The notes beneath the pieces are model-generated. The model was not told where the DNA came from and searched no databases. It worked only from the letters and a program-made list of their open reading frames with translations. DNA of 64,000 bases, taken from the NCBI RefSeq assembly GCF_002188635.1, contig NZ_NINX01000035.1, forward strand, positions 248,001 to 312,000, read 5' to 3'. Both the position numbers and the translations under genes were made by a program. This DNA comes from Pigmentiphaga sp. NML030171. GTDB lineage: Bacteria > Pseudomonadota > Gammaproteobacteria > Burkholderiales > Burkholderiaceae_B. Below are positions 39,477 to 59,526 of the stretch, one piece after another (positions within the stretch are counted from its first letter, which is position 1; every line of letters starts with the position of its first letter).

Positions 39477-39834
39477 TCAGCTTTGGACCTGTTGGTAGCG
39501 CCGTTCGACTTCATCCCAGTCCACCACGTTGTAGAAGGCGGCGATGTATTCGGGACGCCGGCTCTGGTAGCGCAAGTAGTATGCATGCTCCCACACGTCC
39601 AGACCCAGTATCGGGGTGTTACCAGCCATGAGCGGCTGTTCGGGTTGCCCGTGCTTTCCACGGCCACCTTGCCTTGTGGCTTCACGCTCATCCATGCCCA
39701 GTCGCTGCCGAAGCGTGCCAGCGCGGCCGGCGTGGCCGCCGACATTGTTGCGGATGGCCGTGCGCAGGGGCTCGGGTGCCAGGCCGATACCGGCCACCAA
39801 GGCTTCCACGGAAGAGGCGGCATCCGTCCCATTA
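39477..39834 (-). pseudogene. sodA: Superoxide dismutase (Mn/Fe type) remnant
   Basis: Three SOD fragments survive in two frames: frame one gives [36 protein letters not shown] (to about 39729); frame two gives [20 protein letters not shown] and [11 protein letters not shown] (about 39727-39635); frame one resumes with [20 protein letters not shown] and [20 protein letters not shown] (39635-39477). This implies loss of about 40 codons after NNVGGHA, with a frame change, and a one-base deletion near 39635. The 5' third, including the first metal histidines, is missing and is replaced by the end of a LysR gene. Confidence 0.9.
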
Positions 39835-40737: not shown

Positions 40738-40790
40738 GCCGAAACTTAATGGCGCCCACCGGAAAAAGCAATATTCAGTGCCGCTCTGCC

Positions 40791-40814
40791 TTACGCATAC
40801 TTCGCGCATCGTAA
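40791..40814. promoter_or_regulatory. Dyad in LysR/SDR spacer, possible operator
   Basis: TTACG and CGTAA flank 14 bases in the divergent spacer of the cassette, 24-47 bases before the SDR GTG. It could be a LysR operator, but it lies close to the SDR gene start. This is a weak call. Confidence 0.25.
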
Positions 40815-40837
40815 ACGAGGAGCCAGGAGCGCAAGCA

Positions 40838-41581: not shown

Positions 41582-41615
41582 TCACAAAAACCATCAGAAA
41601 CCTGGAGTCGAGACC

Positions 41616-42593: not shown

Positions 42594-42642
42594 GCGCGGT
42601 CGTGTCCGGACCGACCGTCGGGAAATCTTTGAGGATGGAATC

Positions 42643-44091
42643 TTGAAACTGGGAAATACCGATACATACCGGCAGCCGGAACTGCTGATCGGGGGCGATC
42701 CCCGGGGGCTCGATGGCCGGGATGCCATGCCGGTCGTGAATCCGGCGACCGGCGGTGCGCTGTGTCTGCTTCCGCTGGCAAGCCGGCAGGACCTGGACGA
42801 TGCGCTTGAAGCCGCGCAAAGGAGCTTCACGGAATGGAGGCGGGTGGCGCCGGTCGATCGGGGGCGGATCCTGCGCCGGGCGGCCGACCTGATGCGCGGC
42901 AGCGTCGAGCGGATTGCCCGGCTGATCACCCTGGAGGTCGGCAAACCCATTGCCGAGTCCCGCCAGGAGGCGGCGCTGGCCGCGGAGACGCTCGACTGGT
43001 TCGCGGAAGAGGGGCGCCGCGCGTATGGGCGGATACTGCCATCGGGACTGGGCAAGACCCAGTTCATGGTGGTCAAGGAGCCGGTGGGGCCCGTGGCGGC
43101 ATTCGCGCCCTGGAATTTTCCAACGGTCAACGCGGCCCGCAAGATAGGTTCGGCGCTGGCGGCTGGGTGCCCCTGCATTCTGAAGCCAGCGGAAGAGGCA
43201 CCCGCGGCGGCGCTGGAAGTGGCCAGGGCACTGCTGGAGGCCGGCCTGCCGCGCGGAGTCCTGTCTGTCGTGTTCGGCGTGCCAGCGGAGGTTTCCGAGC
43301 ATCTTCTGGCATCGCCGATCATACGGAAGGTGTCCTTCACCGGATCCATTCCCGTCGGGCAACATCTGATGAAACTCGCCGCGGCCTCCGGCAAGCGGAC
43401 CACCATGGAGCTGGGCGGACATGCGCCGGTGCTTGTGTTCGGCGATGCCGATGTCGAGCAAGCGCTGGATTTGGCCGTTGCCTCGAAATACCGGAATGCC
43501 GGCCAGGTGTGTGTAAGTCCGACACGTTTTTATATCCACGAAAGCATCCATGAACGCTTTGTCCAGGGTTTCGAGCAGCGGGTGCGGACCATTTCGGTAG
43601 GCGACGGGCTGGCCGAAAGTACCCGCATGGGGCCGCTAGCGCACGATAGGCGCAGGGCTCCCCTGGAAAGCCTGATCGAAAATGCGCTGGGCGGCGGCGG
43701 CCGCCTCGTCAGCGGTGGCAAGGCCATCGAGTCGGGTGGTTATTTCTTCGAGCCGACGGTACTCGCCGACGTGCCGGAGTCCGCCAGGGTGATGAACGAA
43801 GAGCCTTTCGGCCCCCTGGCGCTGTTGAACGCCTTCACGTCGACGGACGAGGCGATCGCACGGGCGAACCGGCTGCCATTCGGCCTGGCAGCATACGCCT
43901 TCACCCGCTCGACGGACGTGGTGAGGCGGGTATCCCAGGAGGTCGAGGCCGGCATGCTGGGTATCAATTCCTTCATGATCTCGGTTCCCGATGCGCCATT
44001 TCTGGGAATCAAGGAAAGCGGCCATGGTGCTGAGAATGGCATCGAGGGGCTCGAAGCCTGCCTGGTGACCAAGCTGGTTTCCGTGGCTTGA
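42643..44091 (+). CDS. NAD(P)-dependent aldehyde dehydrogenase
   Basis: The 482-residue protein of the aldehyde dehydrogenase superfamily has APWNFPTVNAARKIGSALAA, the SFTGSIPVGQ nucleotide loop, the general base in MELGGHAPVLVF (Glu256) and the nucleophile in NAGQVCVSPTRFY (Cys290). It is probably of the succinate-semialdehyde dehydrogenase group and oxidises an aldehyde from the same operon. TTG start with GAGGA eight bases upstream. The stop forms TGATCA with the convergent bioA stop. Confidence 0.93.
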   Translation: MKLGNTDTYRQPELLIGGDPRGLDGRDAMPVVNPATGGALCLLPLASRQDLDDALEAAQRSFTEWRRVAPVDRGRILRRAADLMRGSVERIARLITLEVGKPIAESRQEAALAAETLDWFAEEGRRAYGRILPSGLGKTQFMVVKEPVGPVAAFAPWNFPTVNAARKIGSALAAGCPCILKPAEEAPAAALEVARALLEAGLPRGVLSVVFGVPAEVSEHLLASPIIRKVSFTGSIPVGQHLMKLAAASGKRTTMELGGHAPVLVFGDADVEQALDLAVASKYRNAGQVCVSPTRFYIHESIHERFVQGFEQRVRTISVGDGLAESTRMGPLAHDRRRAPLESLIENALGGGGRLVSGGKAIESGGYFFEPTVLADVPESARVMNEEPFGPLALLNAFTSTDEAIARANRLPFGLAAYAFTRSTDVVRRVSQEVEAGMLGINSFMISVPDAPFLGIKESGHGAENGIEGLEACLVTKLVSVA

Positions 44092-46677: not shown

Positions 46678-47342
46678 CCGGCGGCGCGCGCCTGCCGCTG
46701 GTGTTCCTGCATGGCTGGGGATTCGATGCCTCGACCTGGGCGCCCATGCGCGCCCACCTGGACGGCTGGGAGGTCCATGCCGACGACGCAGGCTATTTCG
46801 GGCCAGCCGTGGCCGCCGAACGCCCGGCCGCCTACGTGGCCGTGGGGCATTCGCTGGGCGCCATGCGCGGCCTGGAAGACGAGGGCGGTGGTTGCCGCGG
46901 CTTCGTCCTGATCAACGGCTTTGCGCGTTTCGCGGCCTCCGACGATTTTCCCGCGGGAGTCGCCCCCAGGGTGCTGGACCGCATGCTGGCCCGTCTGGCG
47001 GCCGATCCCGTCGCCGTGGTGGGCGAGTTCCGCCGGCGCTGCGGTGCCGATGGCGCCGTCGATGCGGCTAAGCTGGACGAGGCCGCCCTGGCCGCCGGCC
47101 TGCGCTACCTGCGTGAAGGCGATGCGCGCGCGGCCTGGGCCGGCCGGCGCGTCCCGGCCTGCGTCCTGGCGGGCGACGCCGATGCGGTCGTCACGCCGGC
47201 GCTCACGGCCGCCTCGTTCGGGGACCGGGTCTCGTGGTGCGCCGGCGGCGGGCATTTGCTGCCCCTGACGCATCCCGAGTGGTGTGCCGGCCAGGTCCGC
47301 GCGTTCGCGAGTGAACTGGCAAGCGCCGTGGACCACGCATGA
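46674..47342 (+). CDS. BioH-like pimeloyl-ACP methyl ester esterase (alpha/beta hydrolase)
   Basis: The 222-residue alpha/beta hydrolase has LVFLHGWGFDASTWAPM, the nucleophile elbow VGHSLGAM, the acid in LAGDADAVVTP and the histidine in GGGHLLPLTHPEW. It is shorter than E. coli BioH and could be of the BioH, BioG or BioV-type esterase set. Its position between bioF and bioC strongly supports removal of the pimeloyl methyl ester. It overlaps both neighbours by four bases, with GGAGG before its ATG. Confidence 0.88.
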   Translation: MTGGARLPLVFLHGWGFDASTWAPMRAHLDGWEVHADDAGYFGPAVAAERPAAYVAVGHSLGAMRGLEDEGGGCRGFVLINGFARFAASDDFPAGVAPRVLDRMLARLAADPVAVVGEFRRRCGADGAVDAAKLDEAALAAGLRYLREGDARAAWAGRRVPACVLAGDADAVVTPALTAASFGDRVSWCAGGGHLLPLTHPEWCAGQVRAFASELASAVDHA

Positions 47343-48763
47343 CGGGGCCGGTCCATGGGCGAGCGGTGGCGCGCCGCTTCGGCGATGCGGCGGGACGCTA
47401 CGAACGGCACGCGGGCTTGCAGCGCGACGTGGCCGAAGAACTGGCCGCGCGCATCGCCCGCCTGCCGCTGCCGGAGCGCCCGCGCATCCTGGAGATAGGT
47501 TGCGGCACGGGATTCCTGGCCCAGGCCCTGGCGCGCCGGCTGGGGCCGGCATGCTGGACGCTGACGGACGTCTCGCCCGCCATGCTGGAGACCGCACGGC
47601 GGCGCCTGGCACTGCCCGGCACATGCCGTTTCGCGGTCATGGACGGCGAGCATCCCGATACGGGACTGGGCGAATTCGACCTGATCTGCTCCAGCATGGC
47701 GGTGCAATGGTTCGGCGACCTGGACGCGGGGCTGGCGCGGCTGGGCGGCCTGCTGGCCCAGGGCGGCTGGATGGCGGTGGCCACGCTGGCCGACGGTACC
47801 TTCGCCGAGTGGCGCGCGGCGCATGCGGACCATGGGATGGATGCCGCGGTCCGCGACTATCCCCGTCCGGCGGACATCGGCGCCGCGCTGCCCGGCCTGC
47901 GCCGTTTCATGCAGGCCGAAAGACGGGTGCAGCCGCATCGCGACGGCATGGCGTTCCTGCGCGGGCTCAAGGCGATAGGCGCGGATGCGCCCGCGCCGGG
48001 CCGCCGTCCGCTGCCGCCCGCGATGTTCAAGCAGATACTGCGCAGTTTCGACACACGGGGGGCAAGCGTGACCTACCATCTGGCCTACGGCACCTGGAAC
48101 AAGAGCGACGCGCCGCGCGGCGTATTCGTGACCGGCACCGACACCGGCATCGGCAAGACGCTGGTGTCGGCGGTGCTGGCGCACGCCTGGCAGGCCGACT
48201 ACTGGAAGCCTCTGCAAACCGGCGTGGCGACGGAGCCCGACGACACCGGCACGGTGGCACGGCTGGCCGATCTTCCGCCCGAGCGCATCCACGCGCCCCA
48301 CGCGGTGCTGCAGGCGCCGCTGTCGCCCTGGGCGGCCGCGCGCGAGGAAGGCGTGACCCTGGACATGGCCGGCATCGAGCTGCCCGACACGCGCGCGCCG
48401 CTGGTCGTGGAGGGCGCCGGCGGGCTGCTGGTTCCCATCGACGACCGCGCCACCATGATCGACCTGATCGTCCGCCTGGGGCTGCCGGTGGTGCTCGTGG
48501 CGCGCAGCACGCTGGGCACGCTCAATCACACGCTGCTGTCGCTGGAGGCGCTGCGCGCGCGCGGTATCCCGGTGGCGGGCGTGGTGATGAGCGGAGAGCC
48601 CTCGGCCGGCAACCGGCTCGGCATCGAGCAGTTCGGCAAGGTGCGCGTGTTGGCCGAAATCCCGCATCTGCCCAGGGTCGATGCCGACGCGGTGGTGGCC
48701 CTGGCGCGCGGCATCGAGCCGCTGGACCGGGTGCTGCGGGCGGCCGGAACCGCGCGCGCCTGA
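47339..48763 (+). CDS. bioCD: BioC-BioD fusion: malonyl-ACP O-methyltransferase / dethiobiotin synthetase
   Basis: The 474-residue protein joins two biotin enzymes. Residues about 1-250 form BioC: VARRFGDAAGRYERHAGLQR, SAM motif ILEIGCGTGFLAQAL, DLICSSMAVQWFGDL and the terminal VTYHLAYGTWNK. From about residue 256 the frame continues without a break into BioD, with P-loop VTGTDTGIGKTLVS, DYWKPLQTG, VVEGAGGLLVPID and VARSTLGTLNHTLLSLEALR. BioC starts the pathway by methylating malonyl-ACP, and BioD makes dethiobiotin. Separate bioC and bioD starts are not needed and I see no stop between them. Confidence 0.93.
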   Translation: MTGPVHGRAVARRFGDAAGRYERHAGLQRDVAEELAARIARLPLPERPRILEIGCGTGFLAQALARRLGPACWTLTDVSPAMLETARRRLALPGTCRFAVMDGEHPDTGLGEFDLICSSMAVQWFGDLDAGLARLGGLLAQGGWMAVATLADGTFAEWRAAHADHGMDAAVRDYPRPADIGAALPGLRRFMQAERRVQPHRDGMAFLRGLKAIGADAPAPGRRPLPPAMFKQILRSFDTRGASVTYHLAYGTWNKSDAPRGVFVTGTDTGIGKTLVSAVLAHAWQADYWKPLQTGVATEPDDTGTVARLADLPPERIHAPHAVLQAPLSPWAAAREEGVTLDMAGIELPDTRAPLVVEGAGGLLVPIDDRATMIDLIVRLGLPVVLVARSTLGTLNHTLLSLEALRARGIPVAGVVMSGEPSAGNRLGIEQFGKVRVLAEIPHLPRVDADAVVALARGIEPLDRVLRAAGTARA

Positions 48764-48772
48764 AACCGGCCC

Positions 48773-49687
48773 TCAGCGCCTGCCGGCGTCCTGGCCGTAC
48801 AGCATGCGCACGTGCTTGCGCATGTGCTGGAGATAGGCGCTGACCGCCTGCGGCAGGCGCCGGCGGCCCAGCACGCAGACGTCCACGCAGGTCTTGCCCA
48901 GGATGGGATGCGACAGCGGGATGCTGACCAGGTCGCCCGCATCCAGTTCATGATGGATGGACATGTGCGACAGGATGGTGATGCCGCCCTGGTTGCGCGC
49001 GTAATTCTTCATGGCGGCGATGGAGTTGGTCACCATGGCGGGTGCCACCCGCAGGCGTTCGCCCGCGCAGATGGAGTCGATCAGCCGGCGTATGCCGAAG
49101 TCCGAGGCAGGCAGCGCCGTGCGGTGGTTCATCATCTCGCGCAGCGAGATCGCCTTGCGGCGCGCCAGTTCGTGCGTGGGCGCCATCACCGCCTCCAGCG
49201 GCGCCGAAATGCGCAGCGCGCATTCGATGGCGTCGTGCGGCGTGGGGGTGAACGCCAGGCCAAGGTCGGCGTCGCCGCTGGTGACCGCGGCCAGCGTGGT
49301 CTCGGTGCCGGCCACGACGATCTCGAAGGTCACGCCGGGATAGCGCTGCTGGAACCCGGCCACGGTCTGGGTCACGAACTCGATCTGGCCTTCGGTGGAA
49401 TACAGCTTCACGTGGCCGTTGCGCAATCCCTTCAGCGCCTCGAGCTCGGCCAGCATGCGCCGCTGGCCGTGCAGCACTTCCTCGGCATAGTGCAGGCAGA
49501 CCTCGCCCGCGGGCGTCAGCACGACGCCGCGGCTGGACCGGTCCAGCAGCTTGATGCCCAGTTCGCCTTCCAGGCGCTTGATGTGCTTGCTCAGGGCCGA
49601 TGGCGCGATGTCGAGCCGCTCCGACGCTCGCCGTATGCCCTTGCATACCGCGACTTCATAGAAGCTGGCCAGGTCAGCCGGATTCAT
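48773..49687 (-). CDS. LysR-family transcriptional regulator of the 49.9-59.5 kb cluster
   Basis: The 304-residue LysR protein has the HTH DLASFYEVAVCKGIRRASER (with DIAPSALSKHIKRLEGEL) and an effector domain (about 90-295). It is divergent from RidA-Bug-Mo hydroxylase genes, separated by 250 bases that contain a palindromic LysR box and a promoter for the divergent operon. Start at ATG 49687 opens the conserved HTH. Its 3' end is 9 bases from the convergent bioCD stop. Confidence 0.93.
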   Translation of the reverse strand: MNPADLASFYEVAVCKGIRRASERLDIAPSALSKHIKRLEGELGIKLLDRSSRGVVLTPAGEVCLHYAEEVLHGQRRMLAELEALKGLRNGHVKLYSTEGQIEFVTQTVAGFQQRYPGVTFEIVVAGTETTLAAVTSGDADLGLAFTPTPHDAIECALRISAPLEAVMAPTHELARRKAISLREMMNHRTALPASDFGIRRLIDSICAGERLRVAPAMVTNSIAAMKNYARNQGGITILSHMSIHHELDAGDLVSIPLSHPILGKTCVDVCVLGRRRLPQAVSAYLQHMRKHVRMLYGQDAGRR

Positions 49688-49774
49688 GCAGGTTCCCCAT
49701 GTCGGTGCCGTGCACCGGCCTCGTGCGACCGGTGTCCAAGGATGTAGCGTCGCATGCCCTGGTCTCGTGCGGGT

Positions 49775-49791
49775 GTTCTCGTATCGAGAAC
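49775..49791. promoter_or_regulatory. LysR-type operator (T-N11-A palindrome)
   Basis: GTTCTCGTATCGAGAAC is a 7-3-7 perfect inverted repeat; its core TCTCGTATCGAGA fits the LysR T-N11-A motif. Its centre lies about 65 bases upstream of the predicted start of the RidA operon, the classical position for a LysR recognition site. Confidence 0.7.
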
Positions 49792-49812
49792 ATGGTGTGC
49801 GTGTCCCTTGTC

Positions 49813-49841
49813 TTGTTGGGGGGAAGGGATCTCCCGATAAT
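49813..49841 (+). promoter_or_regulatory. Sigma-70 promoter of the RidA-led operon
   Basis: TTGTTG (49813-49818), a 17-base spacer, and GATAAT (49836-49841) make a good -35/-10 pair. The predicted start is near 49848, leaving a leader of about 90 bases that contains a possible long-range stem (49857-49865 with 49892-49900) before the ATG at 49938. Confidence 0.65.
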
Positions 49842-49937
49842 TTTTTTGCCGCCGAGCCGCCCGGCAAGACCGGCGCCAACGTGGCGCAGCAGCCGGGCGG
49901 TTCGTCCGTTTCCCGCCAGTCATTATCGAGGCCCCTC

Positions 49938-50318
49938 ATGTCCACAAGCAAGATTTTCATGTCCGACGCCGTCGCCAAACCCAAGGCGCCGCTCTCGCAC
50001 GCGGTCGTCGCCGGAGACTTCGTCTTCGTCTCGGGCACCACGCCCTTCGACGCCAATCGCGAGCTGGCGCCGACCTTCTCCGAGCAGATGCACCAGGTGA
50101 TGAAGAACCTCAGGCAGATCCTGGGCGAATGCGACAGCTCGCTCGACAAGGTGGTCAAGGCCAACGTGATCCTGACCGACATCAGCCGCTTCAACGAGAT
50201 GAACGAGATTTATCGCGGCTATTTCCAGGAAGGCAAGTTTCCCGCCCGCACCACCATCGAGGCACCCCTGGCGATCGCCGGGATGATGCTGGAGATCGAG
50301 GTCGTGGCGACCCGCTAG
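49938..50318 (+). CDS. RidA-family deaminase-like protein
   Basis: The 126-residue protein belongs to the RidA/YjgF/UK114 family: HAVVAGDFVFVSGTTPFDA, LRQILGECDSSLDKVVKANV, NEIYRGYFQEGKFPARTTIE and LEIEVVATR, with the conserved arginine in PARTT. The family deaminates enamines and imines and includes 2-aminomuconate deaminases of aromatic amine pathways. At the head of a ring-cleavage cluster it may deaminate the ring-fission product. That assignment is inference from context. Confidence 0.9.
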   Translation: MSTSKIFMSDAVAKPKAPLSHAVVAGDFVFVSGTTPFDANRELAPTFSEQMHQVMKNLRQILGECDSSLDKVVKANVILTDISRFNEMNEIYRGYFQEGKFPARTTIEAPLAIAGMMLEIEVVATR

Positions 50319-50388
50319 GCCGGCTGGCGGCGCACGGCTCCCGCGCGCCGCCGATGCTTCTTTCCCTTTTTCGCTCAAGGTATCGAAC

Positions 50389-51396
50389 ATGAAGATGTCG
50401 TTGAGTTCGTCGCTTTTCGCGCGGCGCGCCACCGGTGCCGTGCTTGCCTGCGCCGCCGCGGTCTGTGCCGCCACTGCCACGGCGGCCGACACCTATCCCA
50501 GCCGTCCCATCAAGATCATCGTGCCTTTCGCCGCCGGCGGCGGCAGCGACGTGACTGCGCGGCTGATCGGCAGGAAGCTGCAGGAGGCCTATGGCCAGGC
50601 CGTCGTCGTCGAGAACCAGCCGGGCGCCAGCACCCAGATCGCGACCCGCAACGTGATCCGGTCGGCGCCCGACGGCTACACGCTGCTGCTGGCGACCACC
50701 TCGGTCGTCAACAACACGCACCTGTATCCCAAGCTCGACTACGACGCCATGAAAGAGCTGGTGCCGGTGGTGGGCATCGTCGACGTGCCGCCGTTCCTGG
50801 CCGTGGGGCCCGGCATCAAGGCGACCAACGTCAAGGACTTCATCGCCGAGATCAAGGCCAAGGCCGCCACCGAGAAAGGCGTGACCTTCGGCTCGGCCGG
50901 CCCCGGCAGCACGCTGCACCTGGCTTCCGAATGGCTGGTCAAGCAGCTCGGCATCAAGGCCGTGCATTCGCCCTACAAGGGCAGCGGCCCGGCATCGGTG
51001 GCGCTGGCCCAGGGCGACATCGACTTCAGCTTCGACAACATCCCGCCGCTGCGTCCCATGGTGGATGCGGGCAAGGTGCGACTGTTGATGGTGGGCGCGC
51101 GCAACCGCTTCCCGAGCACGCCGGCGCTGCCGACCCTGAAGGAATCGGGACTGCCCGACGAGGAACTGTCGAGCTGGTTCATCCTGATGGCCCCGGCGCA
51201 GACCCCGCCCGCCGTGGTGGCGTCCATCAACAGCGAAGTGAACAAGATCCTGAAGAAGCCGGACGTGCGCAGTTCGCTGATCGACCTGGGGCTTGCGCCC
51301 ATGGACACCTCGGTGGACGATCTGAAGAAGCGCATGCGCAATGACTTCAACATGTGGGGCGGCATCATCAAGGATGCCAAGGTGACGCTGGAGTGA
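50389..51396 (+). CDS. Bug (TctC-type) periplasmic solute-binding protein
   Basis: The 335-residue receptor has a signal peptide (hydrophobic residues about 15-33, cleavage near TATAA) and Bug motifs: IKIIVPFAAGGGSDVTAR, VENQPGASTQIATRNV, SAPDGYTLL, YKGSGPASVALAQGDIDF. It probably captures the substrate of the downstream catabolic genes. TctA/TctB membrane genes are not in the cluster, so the permease must lie elsewhere or the protein acts in signalling. Confidence 0.93.
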   Translation: MKMSLSSSLFARRATGAVLACAAAVCAATATAADTYPSRPIKIIVPFAAGGGSDVTARLIGRKLQEAYGQAVVVENQPGASTQIATRNVIRSAPDGYTLLLATTSVVNNTHLYPKLDYDAMKELVPVVGIVDVPPFLAVGPGIKATNVKDFIAEIKAKAATEKGVTFGSAGPGSTLHLASEWLVKQLGIKAVHSPYKGSGPASVALAQGDIDFSFDNIPPLRPMVDAGKVRLLMVGARNRFPSTPALPTLKESGLPDEELSSWFILMAPAQTPPAVVASINSEVNKILKKPDVRSSLIDLGLAPMDTSVDDLKKRMRNDFNMWGGIIKDAKVTLE

Positions 51397-51398
51397 GC

Positions 51399-53771
51399 AT
51401 GGGGGAAAGCAAGGTCGACGGTGGCTACGCCCATATCGGGCGGCCGCTGGTCCGGGTGGAGGACGCCCGCCACCTAGCCGGCGGCGGCGCCTTCGTGGCG
51501 GACATCCAGGCGCCGGGATGCCTGGAAGTGGCGTTCTGCCGCAGCCTGGTGGCCCATGGCCGCCTGAAGGGCGTGACACTGCCGCCGGAACTGCCGGCCG
51601 GCACGTTCTGGACCGCGGCCGACATCGCCGGCCTGGCCTTGCCCATCTACTGCGCGTTGCTGCGCCCGGAGTTCAACGGCGCGCCGTATCCGCTGCTGGC
51701 CGACGGCAAGGTGCGTTTCGCCGGCGAGCCCGTGGTCCTGGCGCTGGGCGCGACCCGGGCCGAGGCCGAGGAACGCGCCGAGCAGGTGCAACTGGACATC
51801 GAGCCGCTGGCCGCGGTGGTCGATGCCTGGGACGAGGTCGAACATCCGGGCGTGCCGCTGCACGACCACCTGGACTCCAACCTGGTCATGCGCATCGGCC
51901 GCGCGCTGGGCGATGCGCAGGCCATCATCGACGACCCCGCCGCGCGAGGCCTGCGCCAGGTCACGCGCCGCCTGTCCATGGGGCGGGTGCTGGCCAGCCC
52001 GCTGGAATGCCGGGGCTGCCTGGCCTATCCGGATCCGGCCGGCGGCGTGGTCGTGCACGTGTCCAGCCAACGCCCGCACTTGATCCGCACCTTCCTGGCC
52101 GAACAGATTCCGGGCCTGACCGAAGCCGACATCCGCGTGGTCGTGCCGGACGTGGGCGGCGGCTTCGGCTCCAAGAGCAATCTGTATCCCGAGGAAGTCC
52201 TGGTGACGGCGCTGGCCTGGAAGCTGCGGCGGCCGGTGCGCTGGATCGAGGACCGCTACGAGCATTTCGTCGCCAGCAACCACAGCCGCCAGCACGAGCA
52301 GCGCATCACCGCCTATTTCGACGACACGGGCAGGATCCACGCGCTGGACGCGCTGGTGGTGGTGGATGCCGGCGCCTATTCGGCCAAGACCTCCACCGGC
52401 GCGATCGAGGCCAACATGGCCACCAACGTCATGCTCGGGCCCTACGACATCCGCAACTATCGTTTCGAGGCCGTCAGCATCCATACCAACAAGAGCCCCC
52501 TGGGGCCTTATCGCGGCGTGGGCCGGCCGGGCGGCTGCTTCGCGATGGAGCGCATCATCGAGGAGGTTGCCCGCGAACTGGGCGCCGACCCGCTGGACGT
52601 GCGCCGGGCCAACCTGATCTCGCCGGCGCAGATGCCCTACGTGTCGGCCACCGGGCTGGCCTACGACTCGGGCAACTACCGAGAGGTCGTCGATGCCGCC
52701 GGGCGCTTCGTGGCCGAGAACTGGTCCGCCGCACGGCAGGCCGATGACGGCGGCCGGGTGGGCGTGGGCTATGCGATGCTGGTCGAGCAGGCCGCGCACG
52801 GCGCCGAGGAATGGCGCCGCCGGGGCTCGCCGCTGATCTACGGCCACGAGTCGGCGCGGGCCACGCTGAACATGGACGGCACGCTGGTCATCGAGGTCGG
52901 CACGCTGTCGCACGGGCAGGGGCATTTCACCAGCCTGGCGCAGATCGCGGCCGAGATCACCACGCTGCCGGTCTCGGCGATACGCATACGCCAGGGCGAT
53001 ACGTCGGCGGCGCCCTACGGTCTGGGCTCGGTCGCCTCGCGGTCCATCGTGATGGCGGGCGGGGCGGTGGCCATGGCCTGCCGCGACATCGTCGGCAAGG
53101 CGCGCGCCATCCACGCCGTGCTGCACGAGACGGACGACGCGCAGATCGAGGTGCGCGACGGCGCCTGCGTTTCGCCGCAAGGCACGACGTCCTTCGGAGA
53201 TCTGGCGCGCGTCGCCTACGTGGGCGTGAGCAAGCTGCCGCGCTCCATTTCCCCCGGCTTCTCGTTCCAGGCCGATTATCGGCCCAGCGTTGAGACCGGA
53301 ACGTTTTCCTACACGCTGCACGCCGCGCGCGTCAGCGTCGACCCGGACACCGGTTTCGTCAGGATCCTGGACTACCTGGTGGTGGAAGACTGCGGCACGG
53401 TCGTCAATCCCCTGATCCTGGACGGCCAGATACGCGGCGGCGTCGCGCAAGGCATCGGCCAGGCCCTGTATGAAGAAATGATCTATGACAGCAACGGCCA
53501 GCCGCAGACCGTGACCTTCGGCGACTACGCCGTGCCCAGCGCGGTCGAGGTCCCGCCCATCTCCATCCTGCACTTCAGCACGCCGTCGCCCCATTCCGAG
53601 TTCGGCATGAAGGGCATGGGAGAAGGGGGGGCCGTGGCGCCGCCGGCGGCCATCGCCAATGCCGTGCGCGACGCGCTGGCGGACCTGGGCGTGGACGTGT
53701 GCCGCACGCCCATCACGCCCGACTACCTGCTGCGCCAACTGCACGAAGCCGGGCGGGGAGGCACGCGATGA
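51399..53771 (+). CDS. Molybdenum hydroxylase large subunit (xanthine dehydrogenase family)
   Basis: The 790-residue subunit carries the molybdopterin domain of xanthine dehydrogenase/CO dehydrogenase-type enzymes. It contains the FAD/Mo-contact segments DVGGGFGSKSNLYPEEVLV, GPYRGVGRPGGCFAMERII, SHGQGHFTSLAQIAAE and the catalytic glutamate in GMKGMGEGGAVAPPAAIANA (about residue 741). It would hydroxylate an aromatic or N-heterocyclic carbon with water as oxygen source. The FAD and 2Fe-2S subunits follow with 4-base overlaps. Confidence 0.94.
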   Translation: MGESKVDGGYAHIGRPLVRVEDARHLAGGGAFVADIQAPGCLEVAFCRSLVAHGRLKGVTLPPELPAGTFWTAADIAGLALPIYCALLRPEFNGAPYPLLADGKVRFAGEPVVLALGATRAEAEERAEQVQLDIEPLAAVVDAWDEVEHPGVPLHDHLDSNLVMRIGRALGDAQAIIDDPAARGLRQVTRRLSMGRVLASPLECRGCLAYPDPAGGVVVHVSSQRPHLIRTFLAEQIPGLTEADIRVVVPDVGGGFGSKSNLYPEEVLVTALAWKLRRPVRWIEDRYEHFVASNHSRQHEQRITAYFDDTGRIHALDALVVVDAGAYSAKTSTGAIEANMATNVMLGPYDIRNYRFEAVSIHTNKSPLGPYRGVGRPGGCFAMERIIEEVARELGADPLDVRRANLISPAQMPYVSATGLAYDSGNYREVVDAAGRFVAENWSAARQADDGGRVGVGYAMLVEQAAHGAEEWRRRGSPLIYGHESARATLNMDGTLVIEVGTLSHGQGHFTSLAQIAAEITTLPVSAIRIRQGDTSAAPYGLGSVASRSIVMAGGAVAMACRDIVGKARAIHAVLHETDDAQIEVRDGACVSPQGTTSFGDLARVAYVGVSKLPRSISPGFSFQADYRPSVETGTFSYTLHAARVSVDPDTGFVRILDYLVVEDCGTVVNPLILDGQIRGGVAQGIGQALYEEMIYDSNGQPQTVTFGDYAVPSAVEVPPISILHFSTPSPHSEFGMKGMGEGGAVAPPAAIANAVRDALADLGVDVCRTPITPDYLLRQLHEAGRGGTR

Positions 53772-54616
53772 AGCTGCCGCCTTTCGCGCTGCATGTGCCG
53801 CGCACGCTGGACGAAGCGCTGGCGCTGCGCGCCGCCCTGGGCAGCGATGCCAAGGTCCTGGCCGGCGGGCAGAGCCTGCTGCCCATGATGCGCTACCGCA
53901 TGCTGCGCCCCTACGCGCTGATCGACATCACCCGGGTGGCGTCGCTGGCGAACCTGGACACCGCGCCGGCCGTGCGCATGGGCGCGGCCGTCACCCATGC
54001 CGACGTCGAACGGTGTACGCAGGCCGGGGCGCTGTTCGACCTGCTGCGCGCGCATGCCGCCGAGATCGCCTTCCTGCCGGTGCGTGGCCGGGGCACCGTG
54101 GTCGGCAGCCTGGTCCACGCCGATCCGGCGGGGGACTGGCCGCTGCTGCTGACCGCGCTCGATGCCTCGGTGGAACTGGCCAGCCTGCGGGGGCGGCGTG
54201 TCGTCGCCCTGCGCGATTTCATCCGCGGCGCCATGGACAGCGACGTGCAGGTGGACGAGATCGCGCTGGCGGCCACGCTGCCCGAGCGGGCATCGGGCCT
54301 GGTCCGATGGGGCCGGTGCAAGCTCATGCACCGGGCGGGCGAATTCGCCTCGGCCAGCGCACTGGCCCTGCAAGGCGCCGATGGCCAGTGGGCATGCTGG
54401 CTGGGCGCGATCGATCCTGGTCCGCTGGCCCTGCCGGCCACGGCGGCGCGCCTGGCGGCAGCCGGAGGCCCGACACCCGCCAGGCGCGACGTCGCGGCCT
54501 CGGCCCTGGACGAAATCCTGGCCGCCCGGCCGCACATCGATCCGCTGGCGGCATCCCGTCACGCGCAGGCGATGGCCCGGGCGGTCGAACAGGCATGGCA
54601 AGGAGTCGCCGCATGA
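53768..54616 (+). CDS. Molybdenum hydroxylase FAD-binding subunit (CoxM-like)
   Basis: The 282-residue subunit matches the FAD-binding medium subunit of Mo hydroxylases. The FAD loop LAGGQSLLPMMRYRMLRP follows the N-terminal segment, and PVRGRGTVVGSLVHADPAGD precedes the second half of the FAD site. It passes electrons between FAD and the 2Fe-2S subunit. It overlaps both neighbouring genes by 4 bases. Confidence 0.93.
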   Translation: MKLPPFALHVPRTLDEALALRAALGSDAKVLAGGQSLLPMMRYRMLRPYALIDITRVASLANLDTAPAVRMGAAVTHADVERCTQAGALFDLLRAHAAEIAFLPVRGRGTVVGSLVHADPAGDWPLLLTALDASVELASLRGRRVVALRDFIRGAMDSDVQVDEIALAATLPERASGLVRWGRCKLMHRAGEFASASALALQGADGQWACWLGAIDPGPLALPATAARLAAAGGPTPARRDVAASALDEILAARPHIDPLAASRHAQAMARAVEQAWQGVAA

Positions 54617-55092
54617 AGATCACATTGACCGTGAACGGCCGCGAAACCGGACTCGACGTCGAACCCTCCGCGATACTGGCCGACGTGCTGCGCGAGCAGT
54701 GCCGGCAGACCTCCGTGCACCTGGGCTGCGAGCATGGCGTGTGCGGCGCCTGCAACGTCATCGTCGATGGCCAGGTGGTGCGTGCCTGCCTGACGCTGGC
54801 GGGTTCGGTGGACGGCTGCTCGGTGACCACGCTGGAAGGCCTGTGCGATGCCACGGCCGACCGGCTGCGCCGGGCCTTCGGCGAACACCACGCCCTGCAA
54901 TGCGGCTTCTGCACGCCGGGCATGGTCGTGAGCGGATACGACATCGTGCGCCGTGGCCAGTTGCGCGACGAACCGGCGATCCGCCAGTGCCTGTCCGGCA
55001 ACATCTGCCGCTGCACGGGCTACCACGGCATCGTCGCGGCCGTCGTCGAAGTCGCCAACGAAGAACGACCCATCACCGAGGTGCAAGCGTGA
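54613..55092 (+). CDS. Molybdenum hydroxylase [2Fe-2S] subunit
   Basis: The 159-residue subunit has the two cluster motifs: the plant-type site CEHGVCGACNV with a fourth Cys in VRACLTLAG, and the second site CGFCTPGM...CLSGNICRCTGYHGI. It lacks extra domains. It completes an LMS (large, medium, small) Mo hydroxylase of the CoxLMS layout with gene order L-M-S. The GTG of the dioxygenase gene overlaps its TGA. Confidence 0.95.
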   Translation: MKITLTVNGRETGLDVEPSAILADVLREQCRQTSVHLGCEHGVCGACNVIVDGQVVRACLTLAGSVDGCSVTTLEGLCDATADRLRRAFGEHHALQCGFCTPGMVVSGYDIVRRGQLRDEPAIRQCLSGNICRCTGYHGIVAAVVEVANEERPITEVQA

Positions 55093-56183
55093 AATCCTTC
55101 AATCCCTACGGCATCGTCGGCGCGGCCATCGTGCCGCACGCGCCGCAATTCCTGTCCCTGCCCGAGACCGAGGACCTTGAACAGGTCGCCCGCGTGCGCC
55201 GCTCGCTGGAAACCATAGGCGAGCGGCTGCGGGCGCTCGCGCCCGATTGCATCGTCATGGTGTCCAACGACCATGGCGACCACTTCGTCACCCATGGCGT
55301 GCCGCCGTTCTGCGTGCACGTGGCCGACCAGGCCGACGGCATGCACAAGCATCGCGGCATGTGGGCCATCGACGGCGCCACCGGCTACGCCCTGGTCCCC
55401 GAAATGGAGCGGGCCGGCTTCGACCTGGCCTTCACCATGAACGCCAAGCTGCAGACGGCCTTCACCATACCCTACGAGTTCATGGGCTTCGGGCGCGACG
55501 TGCCGCTGGTGGCCCTGTTCGTCAACGCCTACGTGCCGCCCCAGCCCAGCGGGCGCCGCTGCTACGCCTTCGGCGCCGCCCTGCAGACCGCCTTGCAGCG
55601 CCTGGGCAAGCGGGCGCTGCTGATCGCCAGCGGCGGACTGTCCCACTATCCGGGCACGGTGCACTATCCGCATCCCGACCTGGAGACGGACCAGCGCATC
55701 TTCGCCGAAATCCAGGCGGGACATCTGACGCACCTGCTCAGCTACGACGACTGGGAGCTGGACCGCACCGGCAACGTCGAGCTGCGCGCGCCGCTGATCC
55801 TGGCCGGGGCGCTGGGCGAGAACCGGCCGCCGTTCACGGCGCTGCTGGAGCCGTCGTGGCACCACATCTATGCCTCGGCCGGCTGGGACCTGACCGAGCC
55901 GGCGCCGGCGCGCGATCCGCTGCGCTATCCGGCCATGCCGCCGGAACGGGCCAGGCTGGCCGAGGCGGTGCTGGCCCTGCGCACGCGGGCCGAGGCGGCG
56001 GAACGCTTCCTGGACGACCCCGCGGCCTTCTGCCGGCCCTTCCTCCTGGCGGACGACGAACGCCAGGCGCTGTGCGCCATGCAATGGGATGTCCTGCGGG
56101 ACCGCTTCGGCATCCACGCCTTGCTGACCTCCGGCGCGGCCATGCAGATCGGCCTGGCCGCCAAGCGCCGACAGGCCGGATAG
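55089..56183 (+). CDS. LigB-LigA fused extradiol ring-cleavage dioxygenase
   Basis: The 364-residue protein has an N-terminal class III extradiol (LigB) domain: IVPHAPQFLSLPETEDLE, MVSNDHGDHFVTHGVPPFC and ASGGLSHYPGTVHYPHPDL provide the iron-ligand histidines and catalytic base. The C-terminal 70 residues (ERFLDDPAAFCRPFLLADDE to FGIHALLTSGA) resemble LigA, the alpha subunit of protocatechuate 4,5-dioxygenase. This makes it a single-chain enzyme of the type seen in gallate dioxygenases. The start is GTG overlapping the previous stop. The exact substrate, a dihydroxyaromatic or aminophenol, is unknown. Confidence 0.85.
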   Translation: MKSFNPYGIVGAAIVPHAPQFLSLPETEDLEQVARVRRSLETIGERLRALAPDCIVMVSNDHGDHFVTHGVPPFCVHVADQADGMHKHRGMWAIDGATGYALVPEMERAGFDLAFTMNAKLQTAFTIPYEFMGFGRDVPLVALFVNAYVPPQPSGRRCYAFGAALQTALQRLGKRALLIASGGLSHYPGTVHYPHPDLETDQRIFAEIQAGHLTHLLSYDDWELDRTGNVELRAPLILAGALGENRPPFTALLEPSWHHIYASAGWDLTEPAPARDPLRYPAMPPERARLAEAVLALRTRAEAAERFLDDPAAFCRPFLLADDERQALCAMQWDVLRDRFGIHALLTSGAAMQIGLAAKRRQAG

Positions 56184-56220
56184 AGATTCTTCGCTTCAAC
56201 ATTTTCTTCGGGTATCGGGT

Positions 56221-57372
56221 ATGAAACGCAAAGTAGAAATCGCCGGGGGCGGCATCGCCGGCCTGAGCGCCGGCGCGCTGTTCGCGCGCCGCGGCTGGGA
56301 AGTCAACGTCCACGAGCAGGGATCCGAGATCCGCGAAGTGGGGGCGGGCATCTATATCAAGAACAACAGCCTGGAGGTGCTGGAGAAGCTGGGCGTGCTG
56401 GACCGCATCCGCGGCCAGGGCACGGTACTCGAGCGGGCGCAGATCCAGTTCGCCGACGGCACGGTCAAGCAGGAGCGGCCGTTGCGGGACAAGTCCCGCG
56501 TCCATACCTTCGCCCGGCAGGTGCTGATCGAGGGACTGCGCGACGCCGCGCTCGAGGCCGGCGTGAACATCGTGACCGGCTCGCGGGTAACCGGCGCGCT
56601 GCCCGGCAAGGGCCTGCTGACCGCCGACGGCGGGCTGCACGAGGCCGACCTGGTCATCGCGGCCGACGGCGTGCATTCGGCGGTGCGCAATTCGCTGAAG
56701 ATGGGCGGGGGCTTCACCGAGCTGCCGACCATCATCAACCGCTATCTGATCGAAGGCCGCGCCTTCACGCCCCAGCCCAAGACCGTGGAGCACTGGTCGG
56801 GCAACCGGCGCATAGGCGTGACGCCCTCGGGACCGGACCATACCTACGTCTACATGGTCGCCCCGGCCTGGGACGCCACGGCGGCGCGCTTTCCCATCGA
56901 CGTCGGGGACTGGAGCCGGCGCTTTCCCAGGATCGCCGACCTGATGCCCGTGCTGCACCGGGCCGAGGGCACGCAATACCATTACGGCCTGGTCAAGTGT
57001 CCGAGGTGGAGCGCCGGCAACATCGCCATCCTGGGCGACGCCGCCCATGGCCTGCCGCCGACGCTGGGGCAGGGGGCGGGCCTGACGCTGATGAACGCCT
57101 ACGCGCTGGCGCACCTGGTGGCCGACGCCGACGACGTCGCCGCCGCGGTGTCGGCCTGGGAGCAGCGCGTGCGCTTCATCAGCGATCGCACGCAGGCCTG
57201 GGCCGTGCGCTACGATTGGTTCACGCGCCAGTGGCCGACCTCGCTGGATTTCGCGCGGCCGCTGGTGGCCTGGAGCTTCGGCCAGTTCAAGTGCCTGAAC
57301 GAACGCATGCGCGTGGCCGATCGCGGCCTGGCGCAGGCCGGCATAGACATGATGGGGGAAGCACGGCCATGA
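56221..57372 (+). CDS. FAD-dependent aromatic monooxygenase
   Basis: The 383-residue flavoprotein hydroxylase of the salicylate/6-hydroxynicotinate type shows the nucleotide-binding GGGIAGLSAGALFARRGW at the N-terminus, DLVIAADGVHSAVR (DG motif) and ILGDAAHGLPPTLGQGAGL (GD motif, about 273). It probably hydroxylates or decarboxylates the ring before cleavage by the neighbouring dioxygenase. The CoxG gene overlaps its stop by 4 bases. Confidence 0.93.
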   Translation: MKRKVEIAGGGIAGLSAGALFARRGWEVNVHEQGSEIREVGAGIYIKNNSLEVLEKLGVLDRIRGQGTVLERAQIQFADGTVKQERPLRDKSRVHTFARQVLIEGLRDAALEAGVNIVTGSRVTGALPGKGLLTADGGLHEADLVIAADGVHSAVRNSLKMGGGFTELPTIINRYLIEGRAFTPQPKTVEHWSGNRRIGVTPSGPDHTYVYMVAPAWDATAARFPIDVGDWSRRFPRIADLMPVLHRAEGTQYHYGLVKCPRWSAGNIAILGDAAHGLPPTLGQGAGLTLMNAYALAHLVADADDVAAAVSAWEQRVRFISDRTQAWAVRYDWFTRQWPTSLDFARPLVAWSFGQFKCLNERMRVADRGLAQAGIDMMGEARP

Positions 57373-57977
57373 TCATAGACGGCACCAAGACGCTGGCGGC
57401 GCCGCGCGCCCGGGTCTGGGAGGCGCTGGACGACCTGGACTTCCTGCGCCGGACGATTCCCGACTGCCGCGCCATCAGCCGCACCGACGACGGCGGCTAC
57501 CGGGCCACGATCTCGGCGGGCGTGGGGCCCATACGCGCCAACTTCGAGGTGGCCTTCGCCCGCGCGGTGCAGGCGCAGCAGGAGCGCTTCACGCTGACGG
57601 GCCAGGGCTCGGCCGGCGTGGCCGGCGCCGCCGCCGGCAGCGTGGCCGTGACGCTGGAGGACATCGCCGGCGGTACCTTGCTGGCCTATCGCGCCGAGAC
57701 CGAGGTGACCGGCAAGGTCGCCCAGCTGGGCGCGCGGATGATAGACGGCGCCGCACGCAAGTTCTCGGAGCAGTTCTTCGCGAACGTGCAGCGCGAATTG
57801 TCGGGCGGCGGGGCGCGGACGGCCGCGCCGGCAACCGGGGTCGCGGCCAGCGTCCATGCCGCGCCCGCGCCAGCCGCCGCTTCGCCGGCAGCGGGACGCT
57901 GGCAAGGCTGGTGGCTGCCCATCGCCTGCGGGGTGGGTTGCTTCGTCGGCACCTTCTGCGCCAACCTGCTGCGGTGA
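57369..57977 (+). CDS. CoxG-like SRPBCC protein with C-terminal membrane anchor
   Basis: The 202-residue protein has an SRPBCC/CoxG fold (about residues 1-145: LAAPRARVWEALDDLDFLRR, IPDCRAISRTDDGGYRATIS, FTLTGQGSAGVAGAAAGSVA) and a terminal hydrophobic helix (about 181-200). CoxG recruits CO dehydrogenase to the membrane in carboxydotrophs; here it could tether the Mo hydroxylase to respiratory electron transfer. An Ala/Pro-rich linker (about 145-178) separates fold and anchor. Confidence 0.88.
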   Translation: MIIDGTKTLAAPRARVWEALDDLDFLRRTIPDCRAISRTDDGGYRATISAGVGPIRANFEVAFARAVQAQQERFTLTGQGSAGVAGAAAGSVAVTLEDIAGGTLLAYRAETEVTGKVAQLGARMIDGAARKFSEQFFANVQRELSGGGARTAAPATGVAASVHAAPAPAAASPAAGRWQGWWLPIACGVGCFVGTFCANLLR

Positions 57978-57981
57978 CCGG

Positions 57982-59526
57982 ATGACCAGGCCCGTTCCCC
58001 GTGCGGCCGTGTTCGGCCGGCGCCGCGCCATCGTCACCGGCCATCACCTGGCCAGCCAGAGCGCGCTGGATACCTTGCAGGCAGGCGGCTCGCTGGTCGA
58101 TGCCATGATCTCGGCATCGGCCGTCCTGGCCGTCGCCTTGCCACATGCGACCTCGCTGGGCGGCTGCGGCATGATGCTGTATCACGACGCGGCCTCGGGC
58201 ACGGTCCAGGCCCTGAACGGCACGGGCCGGGCGCCCGGACTGGCCAGTCCGGGTGTCTTCGCCGACGGCGTCATCGGTCCGCGCGGACCATCGACCTGGG
58301 TGGCGCCCGGACTCGTGCGCCTGTGGGACGAGGCGCACCGGCGCCATGGGCGATTGCCCTGGGCCTCGCTGCTGGCGGACGCCGTGCGCCACGCCGCGGA
58401 CGGCATCGGGTGCTCCAGCGAGATTCATCGCAACCTCAGGAGCGCCAGGCCGGCCGTGGTCCGCCAGCCCGGCTTCGGCTCCCTGTTCGTGCCCGACGGC
58501 CGGCCGCTGGCGCCAGGGGACCTCCTGCGCCAGCCCGCCCTGGCCGATACCTTGAAACGCATCGCGCGCGATGGCGCCGACGCTTTCTACCAGGGACCCA
58601 TCGCCCGCAGCCTGGACGCCTTTTCGCGCGCGCAAGGAGGCCTGCTGCGCATGGATGACATGCTGGCGCAGCGGGCCGGCTGGGCGCCACCGGTCAGCCT
58701 GTCCGTGCGGGACAGGCACATCCATGTCATGCCGCCGAATTCCCTGGGGGTGTTGATGCTGGCCCAGCTCGATGCGCTGGCGCCGTACCTGGACGAGCCC
58801 GAAGGCCAGCGCGCCTATGCGCAGATCCAGATCGCGCGGCTATGCCTGGAAACCTTCCAGCGCAAGGTGGCCGACCCGGCCGCGCCGTGGCCCGCCACCC
58901 TGGACCCTGGGCAGGTCGCGCGGCGCCTGGCCAGCGTGGCGGGCGGGACGCCATCGGGCGCGCGCGATCCCGGCGACACCGCCGGCATCGTGCTGGCGGA
59001 CGGGCAGGGCAACGCGCTGGCCATGCTGCAAAGCGTGTTCCAGCCCTTCGGCAGCGGCTGCGTGGATCCGGAAACGGGCATCCTGTTGAATAACCGCCTG
59101 ATCGAATTCGATCTCGATCCGGCCAGCCCCAACGTGCTGGGCCCGGGCAAGCGGCCGGTCCATACGCTGAACCCCTACATCGTGATGGAAGGCGGCAGGC
59201 CGGCCATGCTGGGCGTGTCGCCGGGCGGCGTGAGCCAGACCACGACCGGCGTGCAGGTCATCGCCCATGCCTGCTTCGAGAACCTGCCGCTGGCCCAGGT
59301 CATCGATGCGCCGCGCTGGAGCATCACGCGCGGCGGCGACATCCTGCTCGAACCCGGTTTCGAGCCGGGCGTGGCGCAGCGGCTGCGCGAGGCCGGCGTG
59401 CCGGTGGAAGAGGATTCCCTGCACGAGTTCTACTTCGGGTCGGCCAAGGCCATCCGCATGCGCCACGATGGAACACTGGAGGCGGCGGCCGACCTGCGCC
59501 GCCAGGCCTGCGCGCTGGCGGAGTGA
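57982..59526 (+). CDS. Gamma-glutamyltransferase family (Ntn hydrolase) protein
   Basis: The 514-residue protein belongs to the gamma-glutamyltransferase superfamily, whose precursor is cleaved to expose a nucleophilic threonine. It has the N-terminal LDTLQAGGSLVDAMISASAV segment, GCGMMLYHDAASGT, and the processing site DPGDTAGIVLADGQGNALAM (Thr333), then GSGCVDPETGILLNNRLIEF and PGKRPVHTLNPYIVMEGG. No signal peptide is evident, unlike classical periplasmic enzymes. In this cluster it could hydrolyse an amide or gamma-glutamyl derivative of the aromatic substrate; this is inference. Confidence 0.9.
   Translation: MTRPVPRAAVFGRRRAIVTGHHLASQSALDTLQAGGSLVDAMISASAVLAVALPHATSLGGCGMMLYHDAASGTVQALNGTGRAPGLASPGVFADGVIGPRGPSTWVAPGLVRLWDEAHRRHGRLPWASLLADAVRHAADGIGCSSEIHRNLRSARPAVVRQPGFGSLFVPDGRPLAPGDLLRQPALADTLKRIARDGADAFYQGPIARSLDAFSRAQGGLLRMDDMLAQRAGWAPPVSLSVRDRHIHVMPPNSLGVLMLAQLDALAPYLDEPEGQRAYAQIQIARLCLETFQRKVADPAAPWPATLDPGQVARRLASVAGGTPSGARDPGDTAGIVLADGQGNALAMLQSVFQPFGSGCVDPETGILLNNRLIEFDLDPASPNVLGPGKRPVHTLNPYIVMEGGRPAMLGVSPGGVSQTTTGVQVIAHACFENLPLAQVIDAPRWSITRGGDILLEPGFEPGVAQRLREAGVPVEEDSLHEFYFGSAKAIRMRHDGTLEAAADLRRQACALAE

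Follow-up and report, generated by a model that had tools for sequence, protein, structure and literature searches.

What could a bacterium degrade with a molybdenum (Mo) hydroxylase, a flavin monooxygenase, a LigB-type extradiol dioxygenase, a gamma-glutamyltransferase (GGT)-like N-terminal nucleophile (Ntn) hydrolase and a RidA-family protein encoded side by side? The question is raised by a gene cluster of Pigmentiphaga sp. NML030171, found at positions 48773-59526 of a 64,000-nucleotide stretch (contig NZ_NINX01000035.1, positions 248,001 to 312,000; the whole stretch is hereafter the window) of a 5.86-Mb host genome. The cluster consists of ten intact genes, a divergent LysR-type regulator gene followed by nine collinear genes on the + strand. 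An earlier reading made from the sequence alone (the sequence-only reading) had assigned these nine to families, and all nine are intact and supported by Pfam matches (RidA, Bug/TctC, MoCoBD, FAD_binding_5, Fer2/Fer2_2, LigB, FAD_binding_3, COXG and GGT). As a kind of object the cluster is ordinary, a catabolic operon, and its enzyme combination is unusual and conserved. We propose, with confidence slightly short of even, that it would serve the breakdown of an N-heteroaromatic carboxylic acid, with a pyridine carboxylate as the likeliest candidate, under LysR control in the genus.

Conservation of the gene set

At E 1e-30, 13 of 268 family genomes have the dioxygenase (host included, one being a 34% match), and it occurs in 5 of the 11 listed genus genomes. 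An order-wide draw gave a dioxygenase profile match at E 1e-100 in 4 of 399 genomes, host included. The scan of a named genome collection yielded 16 dioxygenase loci. The GGT-like gene adjoins the dioxygenase gene in 13 of them and is absent from L053 and L054, while L055 reaches its contig end and is undecidable. Nine loci (L041-L045, L047, L049, L051 and L056) have the full set of Bug, CoxLMS, LigB-LigA (LigBA), flavin monooxygenase (FMO), CoxG and GGT genes, and L048 has all of it except that CoxL is a remnant. Outside the genus the gene order Bug-CoxLMS-LigBA-FMO-CoxG-GGT is kept in six complete loci at 42-73% protein identity, with a Rid gene inserted after LigBA in L045, L051 and L056. 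Linkage to GGT is confined to closer relatives of the dioxygenase: every decidable locus above about 57% dioxygenase identity has it, one of four at 51-53% does (L052 does; L053, L054 and L079 do not), and none of those examined at 40-44%.

Ten GGT-bearing loci lie outside the genus (L044-L052 and L056; three same-genus loci, L053, L054 and L055 are excluded from this count). A Rid-type protein is encoded within 10 kb in nine of the ten, L052 being scored as a miss, and a FAH-family hydrolase in eight; unplaced open frames in the relatives' loci were partly scanned. At host-genome densities, a 21-kb locus would be expected to hold about 0.09 Rid, 0.018 GGT-like and 0.086 FAH-like genes. Among the 12 decidable loci outside the genus, GGT is found in 10 (p 2e-16), Rid in 9 (6e-8) and FAH in 8 (1e-6), and the Rid value becomes 2e-5 when only the seven Rid proteins recognised by sequence are counted. 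When four distant loci from the order scan are added (16 loci), the values are 2e-14, 2e-6 and 2e-5, respectively; all these probabilities treat the loci as independent and take their densities from this one genome. The distance matrices of seven genes were also compared over 7 of 17 loci (the window plus the 16), leaving out three same-genus near copies and seven loci with missing or truncated genes. Correlations ranged from 0.59 to 0.94, and for each of the 21 gene pairs no more than 33 of 5040 permutations reached the observed value, which fits joint inheritance. Because the gene set is conserved in other genera, chance adjacency is excluded and the set is a real unit.

L052 (Pusillimonas) and L054 (Pseudolabrys) have another set in common beside the dioxygenase gene, namely a CoxL-like protein (33-34%), a FrsA-like hydrolase, a dienelactone-hydrolase-like protein, a GntR-like regulator and a Rieske oxygenase, Pfam having been run on the L052 copies only.

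The dioxygenase and the GGT-like hydrolase

The dioxygenase matches PF02900 (LigB) at 88.6 bits, and the residues H17, H62, H186 and E231 do not vary across the 16 aligned sequences; their iron-ligand and catalytic roles are assigned from the LigAB motifs. With a LigB domain, the conserved His/His/Glu and the catalytic His, the protein is a class III (LigB-type) extradiol dioxygenase. The sequence-only reading had called it a LigB-LigA fusion, and the predicted structure (mean predicted local distance difference test score 87.8, predicted template modelling score 0.74) agrees by aligning at full length with DesB, although the LigA-like tail has no Pfam LigA match at E 0.001. DesB is the best Foldseek match (E 3e-18 to 6e-17 over 384-391 columns). 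The whole-chain match has about 20% identity and a root-mean-square deviation near 21, which means that the domain placement differs. The model also matches the LigB chain of LigAB and, weakly, its LigA chain (1bou_A, probability 1.00, E 0.1), and aminophenol dioxygenases are among its matches. Judged by this model, the fusion architecture, which is also the likeness to DesB/GalA, is present. Identity as a gallate dioxygenase was rejected on an NCBIfam score of 39.9 bits against a cut-off of 412; the protein falls below every NCBIfam cut-off shown. A 44% identical LigB-LigA paralogue is encoded on host contig C5 (L039:9425-10498), with no GGT-like gene found nearby, and relatives at 40-43% in L080, L081 and L082 are likewise without one.

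The GGT-like protein retains Thr333 and the SPGG loop. In an alignment mapped by eye, N411, Q430, D433 and S462 of Escherichia coli GGT are replaced by F353, R372, E375 and H394, respectively; S351, F353, R372, H394 and T395 occupy the gamma-glutamyl-binding positions, and F353, R372 and H394 are invariant in 12 aligned sequences. A gamma-glutamyltransferase proper was rejected on these replacements and on a TIGR00066 score of 274.1 bits against a cut-off of 357.85. The small subunit best matches 5hft_B (92.9 bits), which we take to be HpxW, followed by 2nlz (81.3) and 2dbu_B (77.0), the latter presumably E. coli GGT. For the large part 2nlz ranks first (123.6 versus 120.5 bits), as it does for the whole chain, and by an ungapped back-count Thr333 meets the first residue of 5hft_B. 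These features suggest a GGT-like enzyme without the gamma-glutamyl pocket that resembles the oxamate amidohydrolase HpxW. Both are GGT-fold Ntn hydrolases with the small-subunit motifs QS, NR and HTLNP in common; they differ in gene context, and the motifs are also found in other GGT-like proteins. HpxW, of the purine pathway of Klebsiella, converts oxamate to oxalate and ammonium (PMC5270733).

Two modules proposed to act before ring cleavage

Among solved proteins, the Mo hydroxylase large subunit is closest to quinoline 2-oxidoreductase (Qor; 469 bits, compared with 370 for the best CO dehydrogenase). An aerobic CO dehydrogenase (CoxL) was rejected: the YRGVG of Qor stands where CO dehydrogenase has its active-site Cys motif, and the TIGR02416 score is 410 bits against a cut-off of 991.15. 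For the flavoprotein, the nearest solved protein is MHPCO (164 bits) of pyridoxine breakdown, followed by tropone 2-monooxygenase (69) and 6-hydroxynicotinate 3-monooxygenase (66). The Tyr255 of the flavoprotein aligns with Tyr270 of MHPCO, a residue with a role in that enzyme, which opens the pyridine ring; in the cluster the flavoprotein is paired with an Mo hydroxylase and a LigB-type dioxygenase. A plasmid search with the dioxygenase gave no match at 1e-40, and one with the Mo subunit returned 38 records, all below 60% identity.

In two relatives, L046 (Achromobacter denitrificans) and L050 (Caballeronia sordidicola), CoxLMS and the flavoprotein were not found in the 21-kb locus. LigBA and GGT stay, and the loci contain a Rieske oxygenase of the LigXa_C type, a ferredoxin-NAD reductase and a Gfo/Idh/MocA dehydrogenase (assigned by Pfam in L046 and by similarity in L050). 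Phthalate 4,5-dioxygenase together with its dihydrodiol dehydrogenase has this composition. A Rieske dioxygenase and a dehydrogenase yield a vicinal diol; on the simplest reading, CoxLMS and the flavoprotein would therefore do likewise, both modules probably making the same diol, and the dioxygenase and the GGT-like enzyme would act after diol formation.

Rid-type proteins and the FAH-family hydrolase

RidA of the cluster matches PF01042 at 105.7 bits and TIGR00004 at 95.8 bits against a cut-off of 106.25. Its Arg104 is invariant in five of five sequences, and by these features it is a member of the Rid family with the essential arginine (PMC4433059), predicted to deaminate imines or enamines. 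Among the relatives, RidA is encoded in L044, L046 and L049, and a 163-amino-acid YjgF-family protein in L045, L050, L051 and L056, of which the L056 copy is recognised by two Pfam Rid-type models. For the 163-amino-acid Rid, FAH and GntR groups, one representative each was examined with Pfam, and the remaining members were placed by similarity. L047 and L048 encode instead a 250-amino-acid protein (L047:15355-16107; L048:15566-16210), the L047 copy of which has no Pfam match. The model of the L047 sequence (mean score 84.8) matches chorismatase (E 1.8e-6), cyclic amide hydrolases (from E 1.4e-4) and single Rid proteins (from E 2.7e-4), including the 2-aminomuconate deaminase AmnE (6.8e-4). 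Compared as profiles, this protein and RidA showed no significant match (probability 2.2%), and none came from a PDB profile search. Judged from the predicted structure, the protein appears to have a tandem Rid-type fold; two of the nine Rid loci thus owe their count to predicted fold alone. Across the order, 39 of 300 genomes encode a member of this 250-amino-acid family, and a 45% identical copy is encoded on host contig C1 (206372-207097).

Proposed pathway

We infer the reactions proposed here from gene content, intact frames, conservation, predicted fold and conserved residues. The Bug protein would bind the acid in the periplasm, and the CoxLMS-type Mo hydroxylase would add a hydroxyl next to the ring nitrogen, with CoxG, by its family only, perhaps aiding maturation or anchoring of the hydroxylase. 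The MHPCO-like flavoprotein would hydroxylate the adjacent carbon to give a 2,3-dihydroxypyridine-type diol. LigB-LigA would then cleave the bond from the 3-hydroxylated carbon to its neighbour away from the nitrogen (distal extradiol cleavage), so that the old C2-C3 pair would become an oxalyl group still on the nitrogen, an N-vinyl oxamate. The GGT-like Ntn hydrolase would cut this oxamate amide to oxalate and an enamine, and RidA would then release ammonia from the enamine, leaving an oxo acid, for example formylpyruvate. We lean, by a little, towards the order of N-heteroaromatic diol, extradiol cleavage, amide hydrolysis and Rid-type deamination, and regard the oxamate form of the cleavage and amide-hydrolysis steps as tentative. 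Quinolinate, picolinate and isonicotinate each fit on paper as the substrate; with picolinate or isonicotinate as the parent, formylpyruvate would remain. The oxo acid would be split by a FAH-family hydrolase, the gene of which is linked in most relatives but absent from this window; a FAH-family protein, KpiD, is proposed to split formylpyruvate in 4-hydroxypyridine breakdown (PMC7356986).

The sequence-only reading had proposed uptake, two hydroxylations, extradiol cleavage and imine deamination. Family membership supports these as predicted steps, with class III cleavage. Of the aromatic and N-heteroaromatic acids that it had named, the latter are the more likely, in view of the Qor-like Mo subunit, the MHPCO-like flavoprotein and the frequency of Rid genes outside the genus. 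The role of the GGT-like enzyme, the alternative Rieske module and the recurring FAH hydrolase are additions to it.

Several points weigh against the proposed pathway. The HpxW-like residues are also present in 2nlz and 2i3o, the functions of which are unproven; they are therefore diagnostic of a subfamily and do not indicate specificity for oxamate. Certain Rid subfamilies seemingly do not hydrolyse imines (PMC4433059); Rid-family matches are common in the host genome (25), and the fold of the 250-amino-acid protein is also like that of cyclic amide hydrolases. LigBA and GGT occur in L052 with no Rid gene found, LigBA occurs in L053 and L054 with neither GGT nor Rid, and neither a GGT-like nor a Rid match was obtained in the four order-scan loci (L079-L082, 40-51% identical), which lie in three other genomes. 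The agreement among distance matrices may come partly from species phylogeny. No FAH gene was found in the window cluster, and the nearest in the genome lie elsewhere, with 53 and 56% identity across about 230 residues. The Bug protein matches a terephthalate binder (183 bits) and Bug27 (178 bits), and judged by sequence this similarity gives no specificity for the substrate. For oxalate, the best host match to oxalyl-CoA decarboxylase scores 189.6 bits against a cut-off of 739.4 and there is no match to bicupin oxalate decarboxylase, other oxalate enzymes not having been searched; oxalate may leave the cell or be an end product.

Alternative explanations

Cleavage beside the nitrogen would lead to a different amide. 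LigB-LigA would then act on a 3,4-dihydroxypyridine-like diol to give an N-formyl imine, the GGT-like enzyme would be a deformylase and RidA would remove the nitrogen. Such a route has a precedent in Arthrobacter IN13, in which 3,4-dihydroxypyridine is converted through 3-(N-formyl)-formiminopyruvate to 3-formylpyruvate with a FAH-family last step proposed, and the same report places the PydA protein of Rhizobium TAL1145 in the LigB family (PMC7356986); Rid and FAH genes also recur in the loci described here. The published hydrolase, however, belongs to the alpha/beta-hydrolase superfamily and is not GGT-like (PMC7356986), and the resemblance to HpxW suits an oxalyl amide better, so that we consider this route unlikely. 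Less probable still is opening of the pyridine ring by the flavoprotein, which its closeness to MHPCO, by far the nearest solved relative, and the matching Tyr255 might suggest. In that case the flavoprotein would provide an enamide for the GGT-like enzyme, and LigB-LigA would act on another ring or substrate; but L046 and L050 have LigBA and GGT together with the Rieske module and neither the flavoprotein nor the Mo hydroxylase was found there, which fits hydroxylation and not ring opening.

We also weighed a benzenoid substrate, namely an acid bearing an amino or acylamino group. It would undergo aminophenol-type cleavage, with RidA as a 2-aminomuconate-type deaminase and the GGT-like enzyme removing an N-acyl group. 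In the aminophenol pathway a RidA-subfamily enzyme does act downstream of a class III dioxygenase (PMC6742747), and the aminophenol dioxygenases among the Foldseek matches point the same way. A Qor-like Mo hydroxylase would nevertheless be unexpected for a benzenoid ring, and the host has a separate operon on contig C12 (about 266996-269233; L116:4996-7233) with a RidA-family gene and two LigB-family proteins that, by eye, resemble aminophenol dioxygenase subunits; a sulfatase-like gene and a TRAP-type transporter adjoin it. Because of this separate Amn-like operon the window cluster is not the aminophenol pathway, and we give the benzenoid explanation little credence. Finally, the cluster might be a patchwork of unrelated catabolic genes, adjacent by chance in the genus, since its families are common in the genome (16 LigB, 5 GGT-like and 24 FAH-like matches besides those to Rid). 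The gene order kept outside the genus is far above chance, and we find this explanation barely credible.

Comparison with known pathways

The cluster is not a known nic, pic or gal cluster, as the sequence-only reading had stated: its family content does not match, and the gallate model is far from its cut-off. A maleamate-type nic/pic pathway was rejected because Pfam shows no nic/pic lower-pathway family among the ten cluster proteins. The pic pathway of Alcaligenes faecalis JQ135 and Bordetella bronchiseptica RB50 is like the proposed route in its substrate class, pyridine acids, and in its use of a dehydrogenase and then a monooxygenase; its lower part consists of PicC decarboxylase, PicD 2,5-dihydroxypyridine dioxygenase, PicE deformylase, PicF amidohydrolase and PicG isomerase (PMC10142695). 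The kpi pathway of Arthrobacter IN13 and mimosine PydA share with the proposed route a flavin monooxygenase, extradiol cleavage of a dihydroxypyridine, a hydrolase and the proposed FAH-family last step. They differ in that ring opening in kpi involves the amidohydrolase-family KpiC, an alpha/beta hydrolase takes the place of the GGT-like enzyme, and the accessible part of the report mentions no Mo hydroxylase for kpi (PMC7356986). The amn pathway of 2-aminophenol has the pairing of a class III dioxygenase with a RidA-subfamily deaminase in common with the cluster, whereas no Mo hydroxylase, flavoprotein or GGT is listed for it in the accessible part of PMC6742747. Membership in amn was rejected: the cluster dioxygenase is fused and not the two-subunit AmnBA, and the dehydrogenase, decarboxylase, hydratase and aldolase of the amn set, which comprises AmnC-H beside AmnBA, are absent from the cluster. 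Among the matches listed in the open-licence literature, none describes the gene combination and none is relevant to quinolinate breakdown.

Gene organization and control region

The features of the cluster are given in Table 1. Third-position GC is 0.86-0.92 across all ten intact open frames. The gaps between the nine collinear genes are, in order, 70, 2, -4, -4, -4, 37, -4 and 4 bases; the 4-base overlaps noted in the sequence-only reading are present, at four of the eight junctions and so not at most of them. The RidA start is taken as 49938, and the longer open frame that encloses it has its first ATG at 49686.

Table 1. Features of the cluster and its control region, in window positions
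Feature	Position	Strand	Evidence
LysR-type regulator, 304 aa (amino acids), divergent	48773..49687	-	open frame, Pfam
19-bp perfect palindrome TGTTCTCG-TAT-CGAGAACA, putative regulator site	49774..49792	.	LysR-RidA interval
Putative promoter TTGTTG-N17-GATAAT	49813..49841	+	conserved in genus loci
RidA-family protein, 126 aa, Arg104 (PARTT) conserved	49938..50318	+	open frame, Pfam
Bug/TctC periplasmic solute-binding protein, 335 aa	50389..51396	+	open frame, Pfam
Mo hydroxylase large subunit (CoxL-like), 790 aa	51399..53771	+	open frame, Pfam
FAD subunit (CoxM-like), 282 aa	53768..54616	+	open frame, Pfam
[2Fe-2S] subunit (CoxS-like), 159 aa	54613..55092	+	open frame, Pfam
Class III extradiol dioxygenase, LigB + LigA-like C-terminal domain, 364 aa, GTG start	55089..56183	+	
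Flavin monooxygenase, 383 aa, nearest solved relative MHPCO	56221..57372	+	open frame, Pfam
CoxG-family protein, 202 aa, hydrophobic C-terminal segment (by eye)	57369..57977	+	open frame, Pfam
GGT-like Ntn hydrolase, 514 aa, probable nucleophile Thr333, HpxW-like S351, R372, H394, T395	57982..59526	+	

LysR control, which the sequence-only reading had also proposed, is seen as gene order: the LysR gene adjoins the cluster in five genus loci, the window included. A GntR-type gene lies beside the cluster in eight of the ten GGT-bearing loci outside the genus (family call by Pfam on the L056 copy only, the others by sequence similarity). The 15-bp core of the palindrome, TTCTCGNNNCGAGAA, occurs in five of five LysR-RidA intervals of the genus, window included, with a variable spacer. 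It has one match in the window versus 0.14 expected (up to one mismatch). The palindrome has the form of the T-N11-A box of LysR-type regulators. LysR proteins usually bind near -65, and the palindrome centre lies about 65 bp before the predicted transcription start; the palindrome is a probable regulator site. TTGTTG and GATAAT are retained in five of five genus loci and form a probable promoter. A scan flagged this stretch as terminator-like, and the promoter list of the same scan omits it; the terminator reading is not supported, because two genus loci (L028 and L030) alter the hairpin bases and keep GATAAT.

Upstream of the cluster, the open frame at 47339-48763 encodes, by eye, a BioC-like methyltransferase fused to a BioD-like dethiobiotin synthetase and follows a BioF-like gene; a frame similar to this fusion adjoins the cluster in L027. 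Farther upstream, 39832-44091 holds a small, catabolic-looking set of LysR, short-chain dehydrogenase, Bug and aldehyde-dehydrogenase-like genes, also recognised by eye.

Implications

We put forward, with low confidence, that the cluster represents an unrecognised aerobic pyridine-carboxylate route in Burkholderiales, with distal cleavage, an HpxW-type GGT-fold amidase, a dedicated Rid protein and a FAH-family hydrolase, in which either the Mo hydroxylase together with the flavoprotein or a Rieske system of the phthalate-dioxygenase type could supply the diol interchangeably. If so, pyridine ring opening would bypass 2,5-dihydroxypyridine and maleamate, and the module swap predicts enzymes able to feed the same pathway. 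GGT and Rid proteins, usually annotated as glutathione enzymes and damage-control proteins, respectively, would have a catabolic job, and some annotations of 'gamma-glutamyltransferase' in soil bacteria would be open to re-reading.

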